From assembly GCA_031460175.1 (NCBI GenBank), contig JAVKGW010000002.1, positions 124,001 to 188,000 on the forward strand: a stretch of DNA of 64,000 bases. The letters run 5' to 3'. Of this stretch, positions 30,900-38,865 are shown piece after piece. The position numbers were made by a program, and so were the translations under genes. The first letter of the stretch is position 1. Each line of letters opens with the position of its first letter. The DNA comes from Armatimonadota bacterium. Its GTDB lineage: Bacteria > Sysuimicrobiota > Sysuimicrobiia > Sysuimicrobiales > Sysuimicrobiaceae. Below the pieces are notes generated by a model, which did no database searches, was not told the origin of the DNA, and saw only the letters and a program-made list of their open reading frames with translations.

Positions 30900-31649
30900 T
30901 CAGGCCCCCCGCACGGACAGCAGGGCGAGGAACCCCAGGCAGACCGTCGCGGCCCCCACCACGGTGCGCAGCGCCTCCGCGCCCACAATGCGCACGGCGC
31001 GGGCGCCCAGAGGCGCGGCCAGGGCGGCACCGCCCGTGACCGCCAGCACCAGGTCCCACCGCCAGGAGGCGGCGAACCACCACGCGTATCCGCTCAGCGC
31101 GGTCAGGGACACCACCGCCTCCGCGAGGTTCGTGATGGCCACCGCGGCCTTGGGATCTAATCCTGCCACCATCTGCCCTCCCGCGAGAAGCGGCCCGTAT
31201 CCGCCGCCGGTGAGGGCTTTGTTCACCGAGGCGACGACTCCCAAAGCCACAAGCCGCACCCAGGAGAACCGATAGACCTTCTGGCCCACCATGAGCCAAC
31301 CCCCGAGGCCGAGGATCATCAGCCCCATGTAGATCCGCACCGTTCCTTCGCTCACCTGCCGGGCAAGCCACGGCCCTCCGAGGCCCCCGGCAAGGCCCGC
31401 GCCCATGAGCACCAGGGCCACCTTCAGGTGAACGGAACCCCGCGCGAACGACGCGTTGCCGTTCAGGTGGTGGAACCGCGCGCCCACCAGACCCGCCGCG
31501 AACTGCGAGAGGAGCAGGGCGGGCACGAGCTCCGGGAGGCGGTAGCCGAAGAGGAGGAGGAGCGGGGCGAGGATGGTCCCATACCCCATGCCCAGCACGG
31601 CGTCCAGGAACCCCGCGCCGAAGGCGAGCAGGACCACGAGCGACAGCAC
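30900..31649 (-). CDS. TauE/SafE-family membrane transporter
   Basis: This 249-residue protein has seven or eight membrane helices and the family features GAGFLDAVLGMGYGTILAPLLLL and SVNKALTGGGYGPLLAGGQ. TauE/SafE proteins export sulfite, sulfoacetate or other organosulfur anions. As the last gene of the sulfate assimilation operon it may relieve sulfite excess or move sulfate. The GTG start at 31649 lies 13 bases after cobA ends. Confidence 0.85.
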   Translation of the reverse strand: MLSLVVLLAFGAGFLDAVLGMGYGTILAPLLLLFGYRLPELVPALLLSQFAAGLVGARFHHLNGNASFARGSVHLKVALVLMGAGLAGGLGGPWLARQVSEGTVRIYMGLMILGLGGWLMVGQKVYRFSWVRLVALGVVASVNKALTGGGYGPLLAGGQMVAGLDPKAAVAITNLAEAVVSLTALSGYAWWFAASWRWDLVLAVTGGAALAAPLGARAVRIVGAEALRTVVGAATVCLGFLALLSVRGA

Positions 31650-31662
31650 GCGGCTTCTCCGC

Positions 31663-32442
31663 TCATCGCCCGGATTCCCCCCTGGACGCCAGGGTGCAGG
31701 GAGCCTCTCCCACCGGCTCCGTCCACCACGGGCTGAGGCGCACCACCTCCCCCACCACCAGCGTGGCGGGCGGCTCGAGTCGTGCCTCCTCCACCTTCCG
31801 CACGATCTCCTCAAGCCGCCCCACCACCACCCGCTGGCCCGGAAGCGTCCCCCGGCTGATCACCGCGGCAGGAACCCCCGCATCCGCCCCGTGACCCAAG
31901 AGCCGATCCACCACCCGCCCAAGCCGCCGCAACCCCATCAGCACCACCAGGGTCGGCACCCGCGCCAACGCCCCCCAGTCCAGGTCCGAGGGCCCCTCGC
32001 ACTCGTGCCCCGTCACCACCGCGAAGGCGGAGGCGTAGGCCCGGTGCGTCACGGGGATGCCCCCGGCCGCGGGAACCGCCACCGCCGCGGTAACCCCCGG
32101 AATGACCTCGTACGGAACCCCGGCCGCCCGCAACGCCTCCACCTCCTCCCCCCCTCGGCCGAAGACGAAGGGGTCTCCCCCCTTCAGGCGCACCACCCAC
32201 AGCCCCGCCCGGGCCCGCTCGATCAACAGCCGGTTGATCTCCTCCTGCGGGAGGCGGTGCCCCGGAGCGTCCTTGCCCACGAAGACCCGCTCGGCCTCAG
32301 GAGGCGCCTCTTCCACCAGGCACGGGTGGACCAGCCGGTCGTAGACCACCACCTCAGACCTCCGCAGCACCCGTAACCCCCGCACCGTGATGAGCTCAGG
32401 ATCGCCCGGGCCGGCCCCCACCAGGTACACCTTGCCCCTCAT
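31663..32442 (-). CDS. cobA: uroporphyrinogen-III C-methyltransferase (SUMT)
   Basis: This 259-residue enzyme transfers two methyl groups from SAM to uroporphyrinogen III, making precorrin-2, the branch point to siroheme and cobalamin. Seen: the N-terminal [20 protein letters not shown], then [26 protein letters not shown], and [17 protein letters not shown]. It overlaps the precorrin-2 dehydrogenase stop (ATGA). Within this operon its job is to supply siroheme to the sulfite reductase. Confidence 0.95.
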
Positions 32443-33080
32443 CCCCCTCCCCCCACGAGCTCCCAAAGCCGCACCCGGGCCCGCTCCCGATCCCCCCGGC
32501 GCAGCAGCTCCAGGATCTCCGAGTCCACGATGCGGTACCACAGCGCCACCCGCTCCCGAAACACCGGAACGCGCCGGGCAATCTCCTCCCGCACCTCGCC
32601 CACGAGGTCCAAAAACGCCCCGTACTCCGGCCCGAGTTGTGCGGCGAACCGGTCCCTCAACCGCACCGCCAGCGCCGGAGCCTTCCCCGACGTGGAGACC
32701 GCAACGACCAAATCCCCCTCCCGGTGCACGGCCGGCGCGATCGCGCTGCAGTGAGGCGGGTCGTCCACCGCGTTGAGCCACACCCGCCGGGCCTCCGCCT
32801 CCTCCCACACCGCGGCATTCGTCGCCCGATCCTCCGACGCCGAGATCCCCAGCCACGCCCCCAACAGATCCCCCCACCGGTACGGCCGCGCCACCCACCT
32901 CAACCGACCTTCCTCCGCCCACCGGCGGATCCGGTCGGTCACCTCCGGGCTCACCACGACCACCTCTGCACCGACCTCCAGAAGCTGAACCACCTTCCCC
33001 TCAGCGAGGGCACCCCCACCCACCACCACGCACCGCCTCCCCCGCACATCCAGCATCACCGGGTAGTACACCGCCTTCAT
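32439..33080 (-). CDS. precorrin-2 dehydrogenase / sirohydrochlorin ferrochelatase
   Basis: This 213-residue protein corresponds to the N-terminal half of CysG (Met8p/SirC family). The start YYPVMLDVRGRRCVVVGGG shows the NAD-binding loop, AVDDPPHCSAIAPAVHREGDL includes the active-site Asp segment, and STSGKAPALAVRLRD follows. It oxidises precorrin-2 and may insert iron to give siroheme. Bacillus-type SirC does only the first step, so ferrochelatase activity is uncertain. Start and end overlap hemD and cobA. Confidence 0.92.
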   Translation of the reverse strand: MKAVYYPVMLDVRGRRCVVVGGGALAEGKVVQLLEVGAEVVVVSPEVTDRIRRWAEEGRLRWVARPYRWGDLLGAWLGISASEDRATNAAVWEEAEARRVWLNAVDDPPHCSAIAPAVHREGDLVVAVSTSGKAPALAVRLRDRFAAQLGPEYGAFLDLVGEVREEIARRVPVFRERVALWYRIVDSEILELLRRGDRERARVRLWELVGGGG

Positions 33081-33883
33081 CCCCCGACACCTCGCAAGTG
33101 TTCCCGCAGGGACTCGATGAGGGGCTTCATCTTCGGGTGGGGGGGCTCCACGGAGACCGGAACGCCCCGGTCCAGCAGGGCCTGCCGCGAAACAGGCCCC
33201 ACCGCGGCCACGGTCACGCGTCCGTTCAGGGCCTCCCGCAAGGCCTCCGCGCACCCCAGCTCCTCCGCGACCCGGAAGAGGTGGGTGACCTGCGGCCGGC
33301 TCGTCACCAGCACCGCCGAAAATGCCCCCTCCACAAGGCCCCGCACGGCCTCCCGAAGCGGGCGGGGATCCGGGGGAAGCGCCCAGCGGTAGGGCTGGGC
33401 GTCCACCACCGCGGCGCCGCGGCCGAGCAGGTACGCGCGGAGGGGTTCGTTTCCCTCGCCGTAGTGCTGCACGAAGACCGTCTTCCCCGCGAGCGGCACG
33501 GAATCCAGGGCGGCGCACAGCTCCGCGGTCGTGTAGGGGCTTGGCGCGGCCAGGGTGGGGCGGATTCCCCATCGCTGGAGCACCGCGGCGGGTTTGGGGC
33601 CCCGGACCGCGACGGGAACCGTCCGCAGGGCCTCCACGTAGGGCTGTCCGAGCCCGAGATGCTCCGCGATCCGGTACAGCCGCTCGGCCCCGGCTCCCGT
33701 CTGCAGCACCACCCAGTCCACCTCCCGCTGGCACAACCGCTCAAGCGGTGTCCGCACCTCCTCCGGATCTGCGTCCACCTCCACCACCGCAGCAGCACAG
33801 ACCACCTCCCACCCGGCCCGCCGTCCGAGCGTCGCCAGGATCTCCGGCATGCGGGATTCGAGCACGAGGACCCGCGGCGTCAT
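33077..33883 (-). CDS. hemD: uroporphyrinogen-III synthase
   Basis: This 268-residue protein closes hydroxymethylbilane to uroporphyrinogen III. The sequence is weakly conserved in the family, but the two-lobed pattern is seen: DWVVLQTGAGAERLY, VAVRGPKPAAVLQRWG, GKTVFVQHYGEGN, and the C-terminal FSAVLVTSRPQVTHLFRVAEE and VTVAAVGPVSRQALLDRG. Its place between cysC and the precorrin-2 dehydrogenase gene makes it part of the siroheme supply for sulfite reduction. Confidence 0.9.
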   Translation of the reverse strand: MTPRVLVLESRMPEILATLGRRAGWEVVCAAAVVEVDADPEEVRTPLERLCQREVDWVVLQTGAGAERLYRIAEHLGLGQPYVEALRTVPVAVRGPKPAAVLQRWGIRPTLAAPSPYTTAELCAALDSVPLAGKTVFVQHYGEGNEPLRAYLLGRGAAVVDAQPYRWALPPDPRPLREAVRGLVEGAFSAVLVTSRPQVTHLFRVAEELGCAEALREALNGRVTVAAVGPVSRQALLDRGVPVSVEPPHPKMKPLIESLREHLRGVGG

Positions 33884-34896
33884 CCCCGCATCCCCATCGG
33901 GTATCCGTGGTGGGCCAGGAGCTCCAGCACCTTCCGGGCACTCTCCTCCGGCGGCTCCCGGTCCGTGTCGAGCACGAGGTCCGGGGCTTCGGGAGGCTCG
34001 TACGGATCATCCAGTCCCGTGAAGTTCGGGATCTCGCTCCGCAGGGCCCGGGCGTAGAGTCCTTTTGGATCCCGCGCGATGAGCACCTCGAGCGGGCAGC
34101 GCACGTAGACTTCGAGGAAGTCGCCGATGCGTCTCCGGGCCTCCTCCCGGGCCTCCCGGTACGGGGAGACCAGGGCCACCAGGACCACCACACCGTGGCG
34201 GACCAGGAGCTCCGCCACGTATGCCACCCGCCGGATGTTCTCGAGCCGGTCCTCCCGGCTGAACCCGAGGCCTCTGGAGAAGTGCTGGCGCACCACGTCC
34301 CCATCCAGGATCTCCACGGGATGGCCTTCCCGCTGCAGACGGTCCGCCACCTGGTGCGCGATGGTGGTCTTGCCGGATCCGGGAAGTCCCGTGAGCCACA
34401 CGCATAGGCCCCGGCGCGAAGGGGTGTTTCCGCTCCCTTCCACGCTCACGCTTTCCACCTGCACGCCGTCCGCCCGCACGGCCAGGTTGAGCCCGATGCC
34501 GTCGGCCCGGAGGTTGAGGGTGAAGTGGCCCAGGGTCCGCATCTCCACCCGCACGGACTCCAGCCGCACGCCGCGCAGGGCCCGCAGGGCCCGGTTTACC
34601 TCCTCGACCTGAGCTTGCAGGGCCTGACCCCGGGGCGTGCGCAAAAGCATCGCCGTCCAGAGGCGTTCCCCCTCCGCATGGAGCCGAGCCCGGGCCCGGC
34701 CCGTCTGCAGCACCATGACCGCAAGCCCTTCCAGCAGGTCCACGAGGTCCGGCGGGACTTCCCCCGCGCGGGCGTGCTCCACGAGCCGCAGCATCTGGGA
34801 TCGCTGGGGCTCCCGAACGGCCCGGCCCAGGGCCTCCGCCTCTTCCACCACCAGCCGGGCCTCTTCCTCCGTAAGGGGGATGCGGACTTCGGTCAT
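33880..34896 (-). CDS. cysC: adenylylsulfate kinase with extra N-terminal domain
   Basis: This 338-residue protein is a two-part fusion. Residues 160-338 form APS kinase: P-loop GLPGSGKTT at 170-178, ILDGDVVRQHFSRGLGFS, ENIRRVAYVAELL and DPKGLYARA; it phosphorylates APS to PAPS. Residues 1-160 match no family I recognise: a helical, acidic first part (to about residue 110) and then a strand-rich part (SVRVEMRTLGHFTLNLRADG). Ordinary bacterial CysC is about 200 residues. The ATG at 34896 overlaps the cysH stop. PAPS is not needed if CysH uses APS directly, so the product may feed sulfotransferases or the domain may add another function. Confidence 0.9.
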   Translation of the reverse strand: MTEVRIPLTEEEARLVVEEAEALGRAVREPQRSQMLRLVEHARAGEVPPDLVDLLEGLAVMVLQTGRARARLHAEGERLWTAMLLRTPRGQALQAQVEEVNRALRALRGVRLESVRVEMRTLGHFTLNLRADGIGLNLAVRADGVQVESVSVEGSGNTPSRRGLCVWLTGLPGSGKTTIAHQVADRLQREGHPVEILDGDVVRQHFSRGLGFSREDRLENIRRVAYVAELLVRHGVVVLVALVSPYREAREEARRRIGDFLEVYVRCPLEVLIARDPKGLYARALRSEIPNFTGLDDPYEPPEAPDLVLDTDREPPEESARKVLELLAHHGYPMGMRG

Positions 34897-35711
34897 TCCG
34901 CCCGCCCTCCTGCGGGTTCCAGGGCGGTGCCGTGGGCCTCCTTGAGGATGGCATGGGCCTCGTGCTCGAACCCGCCCGTCTCGATGGGGCAGTGGATGCC
35001 GCACTCCTTGGGCGCGCCCACCTCCCACCACCACCGGCCCGCCCGGTCGTCCTCCCCGGGCTGGATGGGCCGGGTGCAGGGATCGCAGCCGATGCTGGTG
35101 TAGCCCCCCTCGTAGAGGGGATGTACGGGGACCCCGTGGGTCGTGAGGTACTCCCACACTTCCTCCTTGGTCCAGTCCGCGAGCGGGTTCACCTTCACGA
35201 TGCCGTCGTGGTCGTGGTCCAGCTCTACCTTGCGGATGTTGGCCCGGGAGGCCCACTGCTCCCGGCGCAGCCCCGTGATCCACGCATCCAACCCCTCCAG
35301 GGCCCGCACCAGAGGCCGCACTTTCCGGACCTGGCAGCACAGCAGCCGCAGGGGCACGGACCGGTAGAAGAGGTTCACACCGTGCCGCCGCACCATGGCC
35401 TCCACCTCCCGGTAGTCCGGGAAGAGCACCTCGAACCGCGCCTGCGGGTAGTGCTCCCGCACCTGGTCCATGAAGGCATAGGTGGCCTGCGGGAGTCGGC
35501 CCGTGTCCACGGTGATCACCCGCACGTCCGGCCGGATGCGGGCCGCCATGTCGAGGACGGCCATCCCCTCCGCCTGGAAGGCGGTGACCACCGCCACGCC
35601 GTCCCCGAAGGTCTCGAGGGCCCAGGCGATCACCTCCTGCGGGGAGCGGTCGTCCAGCTCGACGGCGATCTCGCCGATCTCCAGGTCATCGAAGCTTAGC
35701 TGCCGCGGCAT
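34893..35711 (-). CDS. cysH: adenylylsulfate (APS) reductase, thioredoxin-dependent
   Basis: This 272-residue enzyme reduces APS (or PAPS) to sulfite. The cysteine pairs CC at 125-126 and CxxC at 209-212 mark the 4Fe-4S type, which prefers APS. The catalytic cysteine lies in KECGIHC at 236-241. The PP-loop-like segment VVTAFQAEGMAVLDMA and the Arg-rich TGLRREQWASRA are also seen. The protein lies between the sulfite reductase and the APS kinase in the operon. Confidence 0.92.
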   Translation of the reverse strand: MPRQLSFDDLEIGEIAVELDDRSPQEVIAWALETFGDGVAVVTAFQAEGMAVLDMAARIRPDVRVITVDTGRLPQATYAFMDQVREHYPQARFEVLFPDYREVEAMVRRHGVNLFYRSVPLRLLCCQVRKVRPLVRALEGLDAWITGLRREQWASRANIRKVELDHDHDGIVKVNPLADWTKEEVWEYLTTHGVPVHPLYEGGYTSIGCDPCTRPIQPGEDDRAGRWWWEVGAPKECGIHCPIETGGFEHEAHAILKEAHGTALEPAGGRAE

Positions 35712-35729: not shown

Positions 35730-37658
35730 TTATCCGCCCGAGAGGGCGGGCAGGATGGTGAGCTCCTGCCCGGGCCGGAGCGGAGTCTCAAGCCCCTGTA
35801 GTCCCCGGATGTCTTCCTCGTCCACGAAGAGGTTGATGGAGGGGTGGACCTGGCCGTCCGGGGTAAGGAGCTGGGCGGCCAGCTGTGGGAACTGCGCCTT
35901 CAGGATCTCCAGGGCCTCCCGCACCGTCTTCGCCTCCACCTCCACCCGGTCCGCGCCGTCCGTGAAGGGCAGGAACATGCCGGGGATGCGCACCACGGGC
36001 CGCCGGCAAGCCTCCTCCTGGGTGCGCTGGCCGAGCGCCATGGCCTGGAGGGCCTCGTCCGGATGGGCGTCCACGAAGTCCCGGAACCGGTAGCCCGGGC
36101 CGTGCTCCGCTCGCTCCCGCAGCCACGCCTCCACCAGGCGGCAGACCACCTCCGTGATCTGGTCCTCCGGGATGCGGCGCAGGATCGGCTTTCCGATGGC
36201 GGCCTTCGTCCCGAGCCCGCCCCGCAGGCATACATCGTAGGCTTCCACCCGCACGCCCTTGGTGGGGTGCTGGGTGGTGGTGCCCTGGAGCCCGATGTCC
36301 CCAACCCAGTGATGGGCGCAGGCGTGCGGGCATCCATCCGTGTAGATGCGCAGGTCCTCCACGGCCTCCCCGAACCGCTGCTCCAGCACCTCGAGGATCT
36401 CCCGCAGCTTCCCCTTGGTCTCCGCCACGGAGTAGTTGCAGAACTGGTGATCCGTGCAGGCGATGGACCGGCCGTAGAGCCTGTTGCGATCCGGGTCCAG
36501 CCCGATCCGCCGCAACCGCTCCACCACTCCCCCGACCGCACCTTCAGGCACGCCGGTGAGGATGATGTTCTGCATACGGGTAAAGCGCGCGTCCCCGCCG
36601 AACTCCCCGACGAGCTCGCCCAAGGCCACCAGCTGATCCCCCCGCACCCATCCCATGGGCACCGGGATCCCCACGTACACCAGCCCCTCCTGCTTCTGGG
36701 GGTGGATGCCGAGATGATCCGTGTCCCGCATGGGCGGCGGAGCGACACCGTCCTCCAATCTGCGGCCCAACCTCTCCTCCACCATGGCCCGCACGCCCTC
36801 CGGGCCGTAGTCGTCCACCAGGAACTTGATGCGGGCCTTGGCGCGACTCAGGCGGTAGCGGAGGTTGTGTTGCCAGGTGTCCGTGATGGCCCGCAGGACC
36901 TCGATGACGCCTTCGATGGGTTCTGCGGGCACGAACACGCCGAGGTCCCGGGAGATCCGGGGCGTGGCGGAGAGGCCGCCGCCCACCCGCACGGCGAATC
37001 CCGGCCGGCCGTCCTTGAGCACGCCCACGAGGGCCACGTCGTGGATCTCCGGGGCGTTGCACTGGGCGGGGCAGGCGCTGATGGTGTACTTGTGCTTGCG
37101 GGGGAGGTTGCTGTACGCACGGTTCCCATAGAAGAAGCGGGCCACCGCGGCCACCACGGGCTGCACGTCGAACAGCTCCTCCCGGTCCACACCCGCCACG
37201 GGGCAGCTCGTGACGTTGCGCACCGTGTCCCCCTCCCCGCCCACGGTGGTGAGGCCACTCGCCTGGATCTCCTGGAGCACCTCCGGCAGCTGATCCAGCC
37301 GAACCCAGTGGAGCTGGATCCCCTGGCGTGTGGTGAGCTCCCCGTAGTTGCGGCCGTACCGCTGGGAGATCCGGCCCACGGCGATGAGCTGCTCGGGTGC
37401 GATCCGGCCGCCCGGGACCTTGATGCGCACCATGAAGGTGCCCACCTTGGGCTTGTCGTGCGTGAGGCCCCACCAGTTGAGCCGTACGATGTCCTCTTCC
37501 GGGACGGCCTCGTACCCCCGCGCGATGAGCTCCGGGAGCTCGTGGACGATGTCGAGGGGGAACTTCTCCTGCTTGAGGCGCTCGATGGAGTTGCGCTTGA
37601 GGACGAGCTCCCAGGTGACCTCCGCCGTCTGTCCCGTACCGGTGACCTGTACTGCCAT
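35730..37658 (-). CDS. siroheme sulfite reductase fused to a MoaD/ThiS-like sulfur carrier
   Basis: This 642-residue protein has two parts. Residues 1-550 are a ferredoxin-type sulfite/nitrite reductase with duplicated halves; the 4Fe-4S/siroheme ligands are C401, C407, C443 and C447 (C-x5-C-x35-C-x3-C). Residues 555-642 form a beta-grasp domain like MoaD, ThiS and CysO: VREALEILKAQFPQL, then INLFVDEEDIRGLQGLETPL, and a free C-terminal Gly-Gly after ILPALS. Such carriers become thiocarboxylates at that end, so the fusion would join sulfide production to its acceptor. Operon context (sat, cysH, cysC) favours sulfite over nitrite. No E1-like activating gene or Mec+ protease gene is seen nearby. 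Confidence 0.9.
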   Translation of the reverse strand: MAVQVTGTGQTAEVTWELVLKRNSIERLKQEKFPLDIVHELPELIARGYEAVPEEDIVRLNWWGLTHDKPKVGTFMVRIKVPGGRIAPEQLIAVGRISQRYGRNYGELTTRQGIQLHWVRLDQLPEVLQEIQASGLTTVGGEGDTVRNVTSCPVAGVDREELFDVQPVVAAVARFFYGNRAYSNLPRKHKYTISACPAQCNAPEIHDVALVGVLKDGRPGFAVRVGGGLSATPRISRDLGVFVPAEPIEGVIEVLRAITDTWQHNLRYRLSRAKARIKFLVDDYGPEGVRAMVEERLGRRLEDGVAPPPMRDTDHLGIHPQKQEGLVYVGIPVPMGWVRGDQLVALGELVGEFGGDARFTRMQNIILTGVPEGAVGGVVERLRRIGLDPDRNRLYGRSIACTDHQFCNYSVAETKGKLREILEVLEQRFGEAVEDLRIYTDGCPHACAHHWVGDIGLQGTTTQHPTKGVRVEAYDVCLRGGLGTKAAIGKPILRRIPEDQITEVVCRLVEAWLRERAEHGPGYRFRDFVDAHPDEALQAMALGQRTQEEACRRPVVRIPGMFLPFTDGADRVEVEAKTVREALEILKAQFPQLAAQLLTPDGQVHPSINLFVDEEDIRGLQGLETPLRPGQELTILPALSGG

Positions 37659-37671
37659 GGTTTCCCTCCCC

Positions 37672-38865
37672 TCACCGCACGCCCTGTGTGGGTTGTTCCT
37701 GGACTCCGGAAAAGTGCTCCATGAGGATCCGGGCCACCTCCGGCCGCATCACCTGCGGCGGCGGCAGCTGTCCCGAACGCAGGAGCTCCCGCACCCAGGT
37801 GCCGCTGGGGTTCACCCGCGCCTCCGGCGGGTGCGGGCAGCTGCGTTCCGTGGCCATGCCGTCGCACCGCGAGCAGTAGAAGGCCTCCCCGAAAAAGAGC
37901 GGCACGATTCCGATGGCCTGCGGATCGAACCGCTCGAAGATGCGGTGGGCCGCGTACGGCTCGTAGAACCCGCCCACCCCCGCGTGATCCCGGCCGATGA
38001 GGATGTGGGTGCACCCGTAGTTCTTGCGCACGAGCGCATGGAAGACCGCCTCCCGCGGTCCCGCGTAGCGCATGGCCGCAGGGAAGACCGCGAGAAGCAC
38101 CCGATCCCGGGGGTAGTACTGGGCCAGGAGCACCTCGTAGGTGCGGAGCCGCACCGCGGCCGGAAGATCATCCCCCTTGGTCTCGCCCACCAGCGGATGC
38201 AGCAGCAATCCATCCGTGACCTCCAGGGCCACTTTCTGCAGGTACTCGTGGGCCCGGTGGATGGGATTGCGGGTCTGGAACGCGGTCACCGTGCGCCATC
38301 CCGCCCGCGCGAACAGAGCCCGGGTCTGGGCCGGATCCAGCTCAAGTCCCGGGAACGCGGGCGGCGGCCGGTCCACCAGCCAAACCGCTCCGCCCGCAAG
38401 CCACCGCGACTCCCGCAAAAGCCTCGCCACGCCCGGATGCCGGAGGTCCGTGGTGCCGAAGACGAGCCGCGCTTCCTGCTCCGGGTCCCGGCGGTAGATC
38501 TCCGCCACCTCCATCACCGCCAGGAGCGTTGGACCTTGGAGGGCCAGCCGATCGCCTGGGCTGATCCGGCGCGCGAGCTCCTCCGGAACCGGCAGGGTGA
38601 CGGGCAGGGTCCAGGGAAGGCCATCGGGCAAGTGCATCTCGTGCACCACGGAGCGGTACGCTTCCTGCGTCATGAAGCCCCGCAGGGGACTATAGGCCCC
38701 CGTGGCAATGAGAACCGCGTCCGCGGCCTCCTTGGGCGCAAGAAGCACCGTTGGAAGGTGGCGGGCCTCTTCCCGAAGGGCCTGCGCGAGCTCTCCATGT
38801 ACAACACCTTGGACCAACTCTCCGCCGTGTGGTGCGATCACGGATCCACCTCCAGGTACGGCCAT
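37672..38865 (-). CDS. sat: sulfate adenylyltransferase (ATP sulfurylase)
   Basis: This 397-residue enzyme activates sulfate with ATP to form APS, the first step of assimilation. Active-site motifs are present: FQTRNPIHRAHEYLQK and LIGRDHAGVGGFYEPYAA. A C-terminal CSRCDGMATERSC segment may bind zinc, as in thermophile enzymes. It is the dissimilatory/plant-like homo-oligomeric Sat type and has no APS kinase domain attached. It is the first protein-coding gene of the operon after the leader peptide, with GGGAGGG seven bases before its ATG. Confidence 0.95.
   Translation of the reverse strand: MAVPGGGSVIAPHGGELVQGVVHGELAQALREEARHLPTVLLAPKEAADAVLIATGAYSPLRGFMTQEAYRSVVHEMHLPDGLPWTLPVTLPVPEELARRISPGDRLALQGPTLLAVMEVAEIYRRDPEQEARLVFGTTDLRHPGVARLLRESRWLAGGAVWLVDRPPPAFPGLELDPAQTRALFARAGWRTVTAFQTRNPIHRAHEYLQKVALEVTDGLLLHPLVGETKGDDLPAAVRLRTYEVLLAQYYPRDRVLLAVFPAAMRYAGPREAVFHALVRKNYGCTHILIGRDHAGVGGFYEPYAAHRIFERFDPQAIGIVPLFFGEAFYCSRCDGMATERSCPHPPEARVNPSGTWVRELLRSGQLPPPQVMRPEVARILMEHFSGVQEQPTQGVR

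Follow-up and report, generated by a model that had tools for sequence, protein, structure and literature searches.

We found that the window (the whole 64,000-nucleotide stretch of DNA analysed here) encodes a sulfite reductase (Sir) with a sulfur-carrier domain at its C-terminus and a free Gly-Gly end. On the evidence of its sequence, the fused domain is probably a working tethered sulfur carrier. The reading towards which we lean, with moderate confidence, is that of an assimilatory NirA-type Sir with a covalently attached protein-thiocarboxylate carrier, which would be loaded by an E1 enzyme and would serve a PLP sulfhydrylase. The direct fusion had been implied to be novel by the initial annotation, but the architecture was published in 2006, when Iyer, Burroughs, and Aravind described Nocardioides and Acidothermus sulfite reductases that have ThiS fused to their C-terminus, called the domain 'a distinct version of ThiS', and connected gene clusters of this kind with sulfate assimilation and transfer onto the carrier (PMC1779556). 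The fusion itself has therefore been known for twenty years; what is added here is its range over at least six phyla, the invariant Gly-Gly, a separate carrier group, and forms in which an internal Gly-Gly is followed by CysH. A literature search found no experimental or biochemical study of any Sir-ThiS protein. The gene and its parts are as follows.

35730-37658, reverse strand: sir-ThiS open reading frame, 642 amino acids, ATG start
36039..37658, reverse strand: siroheme/4Fe-4S sulfite reductase core, residues 1-540 (Pfam NIR_SIR and NIR_SIR_ferr; four invariant Cys)
37089..37109, reverse strand: NLPRKHK, residues 184-190, with Lys190 as the sulfite-reductase-type residue (alignment to tobacco nitrite reductase)
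35997..36038, reverse strand: variable linker, residues 541-554, Ala/Glu/Pro-rich (40% mean column identity in 31 fused relatives)
35733..35996, reverse strand: C-terminal ThiS/MoaD/CysO-type sulfur-carrier domain, residues 555-642, about 88 amino acids (Pfam, CysO match, and tree)
35733..35738, reverse strand: terminal Gly641-Gly642 with free C-terminus, the stop codon (35730-35732) following directly

Pfam searches identified NIR_SIR (5e-50) and NIR_SIR_ferr (3e-39) in the reading frame. The initial annotation had described residues 555-642 as MoaD/ThiS/CysO-like and ending in Gly-Gly, and profile searches of the C-terminal residues bore this out. ThiS matched residues 570-642 at 6.3e-10 and 39.9 bits (Pfam cut-off, 22.5 bits), and the isolated carrier tail matched it at 7.4e-11. 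The closest solved relative of the tail was M. tuberculosis CysO (3dwg, labelled in its record as the 9.5 kDa culture filtrate antigen cfp10A), with an E value of 3e-11 over residues 2-88 of 88. The last residues of the protein were ..ILPALSGG, after which came the stop codon. The same architecture was repeated in a genome of the same genus (87% identity) and in three more members of the family (81-82%). The dN/dS ratios were 0.17-0.29 for the carrier and 0.09-0.21 for the reductase, and the carrier domain is under purifying selection. The domain matches, the repeated architecture, and the dN/dS ratios led us to reject chance or a frameshift or sequencing artefact as the source of the fusion.

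In the NCBIfam search the tail matched SAMP1 best (3e-14), followed by moaD_arch (7e-9), each under its own cut-off. SAMP1 is an archaeal protein modifier, and the JAB protein of this genome scored as a desampylase, also below cut-off; both would suit a docking, regulatory, or SAMP-like conjugating module whose Gly-Gly serves protein binding or isopeptide conjugation. We consider such a module very unlikely, in that the sulfate-assimilation operon and the position of CysO as closest solved relative favour sulfur transfer, although the two roles are not exclusive.

The cluster and siroheme cysteines C401, C407, C443, and C447 were invariant across 47 relatives, and so was K190 in the alignment. 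The position of Lys190 is one that we take to be Asn226 of tobacco nitrite reductase, where a change from Asn to Lys moves the plant nitrite reductase towards sulfite. In the tobacco nitrite reductase chains this column was mostly Asn (SNLPRKWN), with Lys in chain 3vlx (SNLPRKWK). The genome contained a second reductase (G000:C2:1072-2535) that read NLPRKFN, with Asn where the fused enzyme has Lys190. This second enzyme had no carrier domain and scored best, by far, as a ferredoxin-nitrite reductase (572.6 versus 341 bits). Because of Lys190 and the features of the second reductase, the fused enzyme was assigned as the sulfite reductase, and we conclude that it is an assimilatory ferredoxin/NirA-type Sir by predicted activity.

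Relatives were collected from a scan of named genomes, which gave 69 loci. The fusion was present in at least six phyla, the fused enzymes coming from Armatimonadota-labelled genomes, Acidobacteriota (Pyrinomonas), Actinomycetota, Chloroflexota, Rhodothermota, and Aquificota, with one labelled Tectomicrobia. Unfused Sir occurred in Latescibacterota, Acidobacteriota, Chloroflexota, Actinomycetota, and others. Retention of the terminal Gly-Gly among relatives, on which the initial annotation had placed weight, was complete in the 31 aligned fused proteins (31/31), and mean column identity among fused relatives fell from 74% in the reductase to 60% in the remainder of the carrier and 40% in the linker. 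The carrier is absent from many of the reductase's close relatives, is presumably dispensable for sulfite reduction as such, and might be thought a structural appendage without carrier chemistry; however, a Gly-Gly that stays invariant while the linker drifts, together with purifying selection, makes this highly improbable. Three forms of the end were found in fused proteins: a free Gly-Gly (most of them, including the present protein), Gly-Gly plus 2-5 residues (GGGA, GGAC, GGGC, GGAF, GGAR, GGAV, GGAL, GGVS, and GGVDNEV), and an internal Gly-Gly. A profile of the fused domain found no split carrier gene beside unfused Sir, the best unexplained match having an E value of 0.017. At one locus (L057:4640-6883, forward strand) a second reading frame encoded CysH followed by the C-terminal half of Sir and its carrier; a complete Sir-ThiS gene lay alongside, and the arrangement represents a tandem duplication or a misassembly.

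The sir-ThiS gene was the second of a compact operon that runs from sat through sir-ThiS, cysH, apsK, and the siroheme genes to tauE. Its other members are listed below.

37672..38865, reverse strand: sat, ATP sulfurylase, operon gene 1, 13 bp upstream of sir (NCBIfam TIGR00339 and PRK04149 over cut-off)
34893..35711, reverse strand: cysH, APS reductase, 18 bp downstream of sir (TIGR02055 over cut-off; CC and CxxC motifs)
33880..34896, reverse strand: conserved N-terminal part of about 160 amino acids fused to adenylylsulfate kinase (Pfam APS_kinase, NCBIfam; kinase from about 34410 down)
33077..33883, reverse strand: hemD, uroporphyrinogen-III synthase, for siroheme supply (Pfam HEM4)
32439..33080, reverse strand: precorrin-2 dehydrogenase/ferrochelatase-type gene, for siroheme supply (TIGR01470 over cut-off)
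31663..32442, reverse strand: cobA, uroporphyrinogen-III methyltransferase, for siroheme supply (TIGR01469 over cut-off)
30900..31814, reverse strand: TauE/SafE-type exporter, the final gene in this direction (Pfam TauE)

The CC and CxxC motifs of the operon CysH are the pattern of APS reductases. Pattern matching alone placed a promoter-like site at 39090-39062, upstream of sat, and a terminator-like site at the end of the gene preceding sat. The protein of about 160 amino acids (window 34410-34896, reverse strand) had no Pfam match over cut-off and was found in 52 loci. In most Sir loci, fused and unfused alike, it was encoded after cysH, and in the present genome and its near relatives it was joined to the N-terminus of adenylylsulfate kinase. 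Genes for E1, JAB, and CysM or another PLP sulfhydrylase were found neither in the sir operon nor, within the available flanks, near the fused relatives. The present gene resembles the Sir-ThiS of Iyer et al. in its ThiS-type C-terminal fusion on an assimilatory sulfite reductase and its sulfate-assimilation neighbours; it differs in that it and the relatives examined have no adjoining E1 or JAB, in a range that extends beyond Actinobacteria, and in the addition of Sir-ThiS-CysH.

The E1-like partner, CysM, and JAB protein that the initial annotation had proposed to look for were all present when the rest of the genome (2.49 Mb, 98.9% complete) was searched, with E1 and JAB on other contigs than the sir operon or far from the window. 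The sole strong E1 (G000:C3:138148-138852, 3e-83) was MoeZ/MoeBR-like and carried a rhodanese domain with the Cys loop YCASGQRS. Contig C8 held a cluster of a free CysO-like carrier ending in ..AMAGGKR, an SbnI/SerK-like protein, CysM, and the JAB protein, which had the motif HxHx7SxxD and scored, below cut-off, as a desampylase. The C8 CysM was the only protein to exceed the cysteine synthase cut-off, and nothing in the genome reached that of CysE (best, 32 versus 211 bits). Cysteine is therefore probably made through CysM, and these scores suggest that it derives from O-phosphoserine in this genome. The presence of E1 and JAB was rejected as support for a role of the fusion, since both were about equally common with unfused Sir: in a survey covering the genomes of 50 of 62 loci (32 fused and 18 unfused), JAB was found in 30/32 and E1 in 30/32 fused-Sir genomes, compared with 16/18 and 15/18 of the unfused. 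Further carriers in the genome were a MoaD-MoaE fusion, a ThiS-ThiG fusion, and a small carrier (G000:C12:12908-13075, reverse strand; also in L017), which had residues after its Gly-Gly (VVSGGGRAVREV) and adjoined a TtcA/TtuA-like tRNA-thiolation gene.

In the working that we propose, the single MoeZ-like E1 would adenylate the free Gly-Gly end of the fused protein. A Gly-Gly thiocarboxylate would then form as AMP is displaced, either by bisulfide produced at the siroheme within that polypeptide chain or by a persulfide on the rhodanese domain of the E1. From the loaded domain the sulfur would move on to a PLP sulfhydrylase; CysM, acting with O-phosphoserine, is the likeliest acceptor and the MetZ-like enzyme a possible one. 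JAB would release the amino acid. Adenylation, thiocarboxylate formation, the identity of the acceptor, and any channelling are steps that we infer, and the tether may likewise allow sulfide loading, protection, and direct capture of the reductase's own sulfide. If it is true that the tethered carrier takes sulfide at the siroheme, these thermophile-rich lineages would keep a toxic, volatile intermediate from being released during sulfate assimilation. The question is directly testable with purified proteins, given a single E1, a single clear cysteine synthase, an invariant Gly-Gly, and natural forms with free, tailed, and internal Gly-Gly.

That one E1 can charge more than one carrier is known from mycobacterial MoeZR, which charges both MoaD and CysO (PMC3227635). 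A rhodanese route has been proposed for CysO in the same work (PMC3227635), and since the only strong E1 here has a rhodanese domain, the carrier could be loaded with sulfane sulfur (from the E1 rhodanese or a cysteine desulfurase) instead of the enzyme's own sulfide, with the fusion serving only to co-localise or co-express the two. We hold this to be unlikely, if with a real chance, because at least two separate lineages, and perhaps a third, have the carrier joined specifically to the enzyme that makes sulfide, for which co-expression alone is an insufficient explanation.

The CysO route to cysteine, which the initial annotation had invoked, was borne out in part. As in the CysO/CysM/Mec+/MoeZ route of M. 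tuberculosis, there was a CysO-like fold with Gly-Gly, and E1, CysM, and JAB were in the genome. On the other hand, a separate CysO (tail GGKR) stood beside CysM and JAB, all three on C8, whereas sir-ThiS was not beside cysM or JAB, and the fused carrier fell outside the CysO group. Since the separate CysO adjoins CysM, the fused carrier may not be the partner of CysM. Its place outside the CysO group would also fit a loaded carrier that serves homocysteine and methionine synthesis (HcyS-type) in place of cysteine. Gene neighbourhoods that combine carriers with JAB, E1, sulfite reductase, and O-acetylhomoserine sulfhydrylase have been described (PMC1779556, row 4e), and the genome had one clear Cys/Met-metabolism PLP enzyme, MetZ-like and closest to methionine gamma-lyase and O-succinylhomoserine sulfhydrylase. 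This enzyme was however encoded on another contig (C8) and stayed below every curated cut-off shown, and the Sir operon showed no such gene; we rate the methionine route as fairly unlikely. Krishnamoorthy and Begley are said to have reported in 2011 that bisulfide from Sir loads HcyS in Wolinella. The HcyS/HcyD/HcyF protein-thiocarboxylate methionine route of Wolinella succinogenes, for which PMC5764234 cites their paper, is alike in that a carrier is loaded in a sulfate-derived pathway using sulfite reductase; here, in contrast, the carrier is covalently on the reductase, nothing follows the Gly-Gly, and the operon has no E1, JAB, or sulfhydrylase. An HcyS-type E1/JAB/MetY cluster was absent, with E1 and JAB on other contigs or distant and the PLP candidate on C8.

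The history of the carrier was examined in a tree of 41 Sir-fused domains and 55 standalone CysO-like carriers, built from an alignment of only 88 columns with sequences gathered by related queries. The two sets were split by a branch with support of 95/91, present in 94% of bootstrap trees. The split is good, though not conclusive, evidence that the fused carriers form a distinct family apart from CysO. A standalone carrier copy was also found in 30/32 fused genomes. Since the domain tree grouped the fused carriers together, we rejected the idea that the CysO of each genome had been fused locally on repeated occasions. In the reductase tree the fused state took two changes (the main group and Aquificota), and both trees are explained equally well by a single ancient fusion followed by losses or transfers and by two fusions that drew on one carrier family. 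At L024:1091-2929 (forward strand), a related reductase bore at its end a shorter carrier of another kind, ThiS/SAMP2-like and with further residues following its Gly-Gly (LSGGSGGEVICREWA), likely through a separate fusion event.

The reading frame extended past a retained, now internal Gly-Gly into CysH in nine Aquificota genomes and at one Chloroflexota locus (L064); the single-frame Sir-ThiS-CysH loci were L103, L104, L122-L130, and L064. Pfam recognised all four families within a single chain. At the Aquificota junction PALAGG was followed by Ala or Ser, and CysH began a few residues on. MoaX of M. tuberculosis, a MoaD-MoaE fusion, undergoes a cleavage between Gly82 and Ser83 that its function requires (PMC4326299). 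By analogy, Sir-ThiS-CysH is predicted to be cut after its internal Gly-Gly, and the L064, L103, and L104 genomes did encode JAB proteins. MoaX and ThiS-ThiG resemble the present protein in that a carrier is fused to its working partner, but the present carrier is C-terminal with a free Gly-Gly, so no cutting is needed. It is conceivable, though we think it quite unlikely, that Sir-ThiS and the Aquificota Sir-ThiS-CysH make up a dedicated line that takes sulfate sulfur from sulfite to a protein thiocarboxylate, bypassing free sulfide, and in which a JAB-type protease cuts after the internal Gly-Gly. For Aquifex and Acidimicrobium, PMC5764234 notes a homocysteine route that is yet to be found; as Aquificota and Acidimicrobiaceae are among the groups with fused enzymes, the Sir-ThiS line might bear on it, which is so far a coincidence of lineage only. 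In two genomes, a CysO-like carrier and an E1 apparently shared one open frame (G046:C7:263552-264586 and G047:C122:1985-3028; 489 and 494 amino acids), which suggests a carrier-E1 fusion in Pyrinomonas-type genomes.
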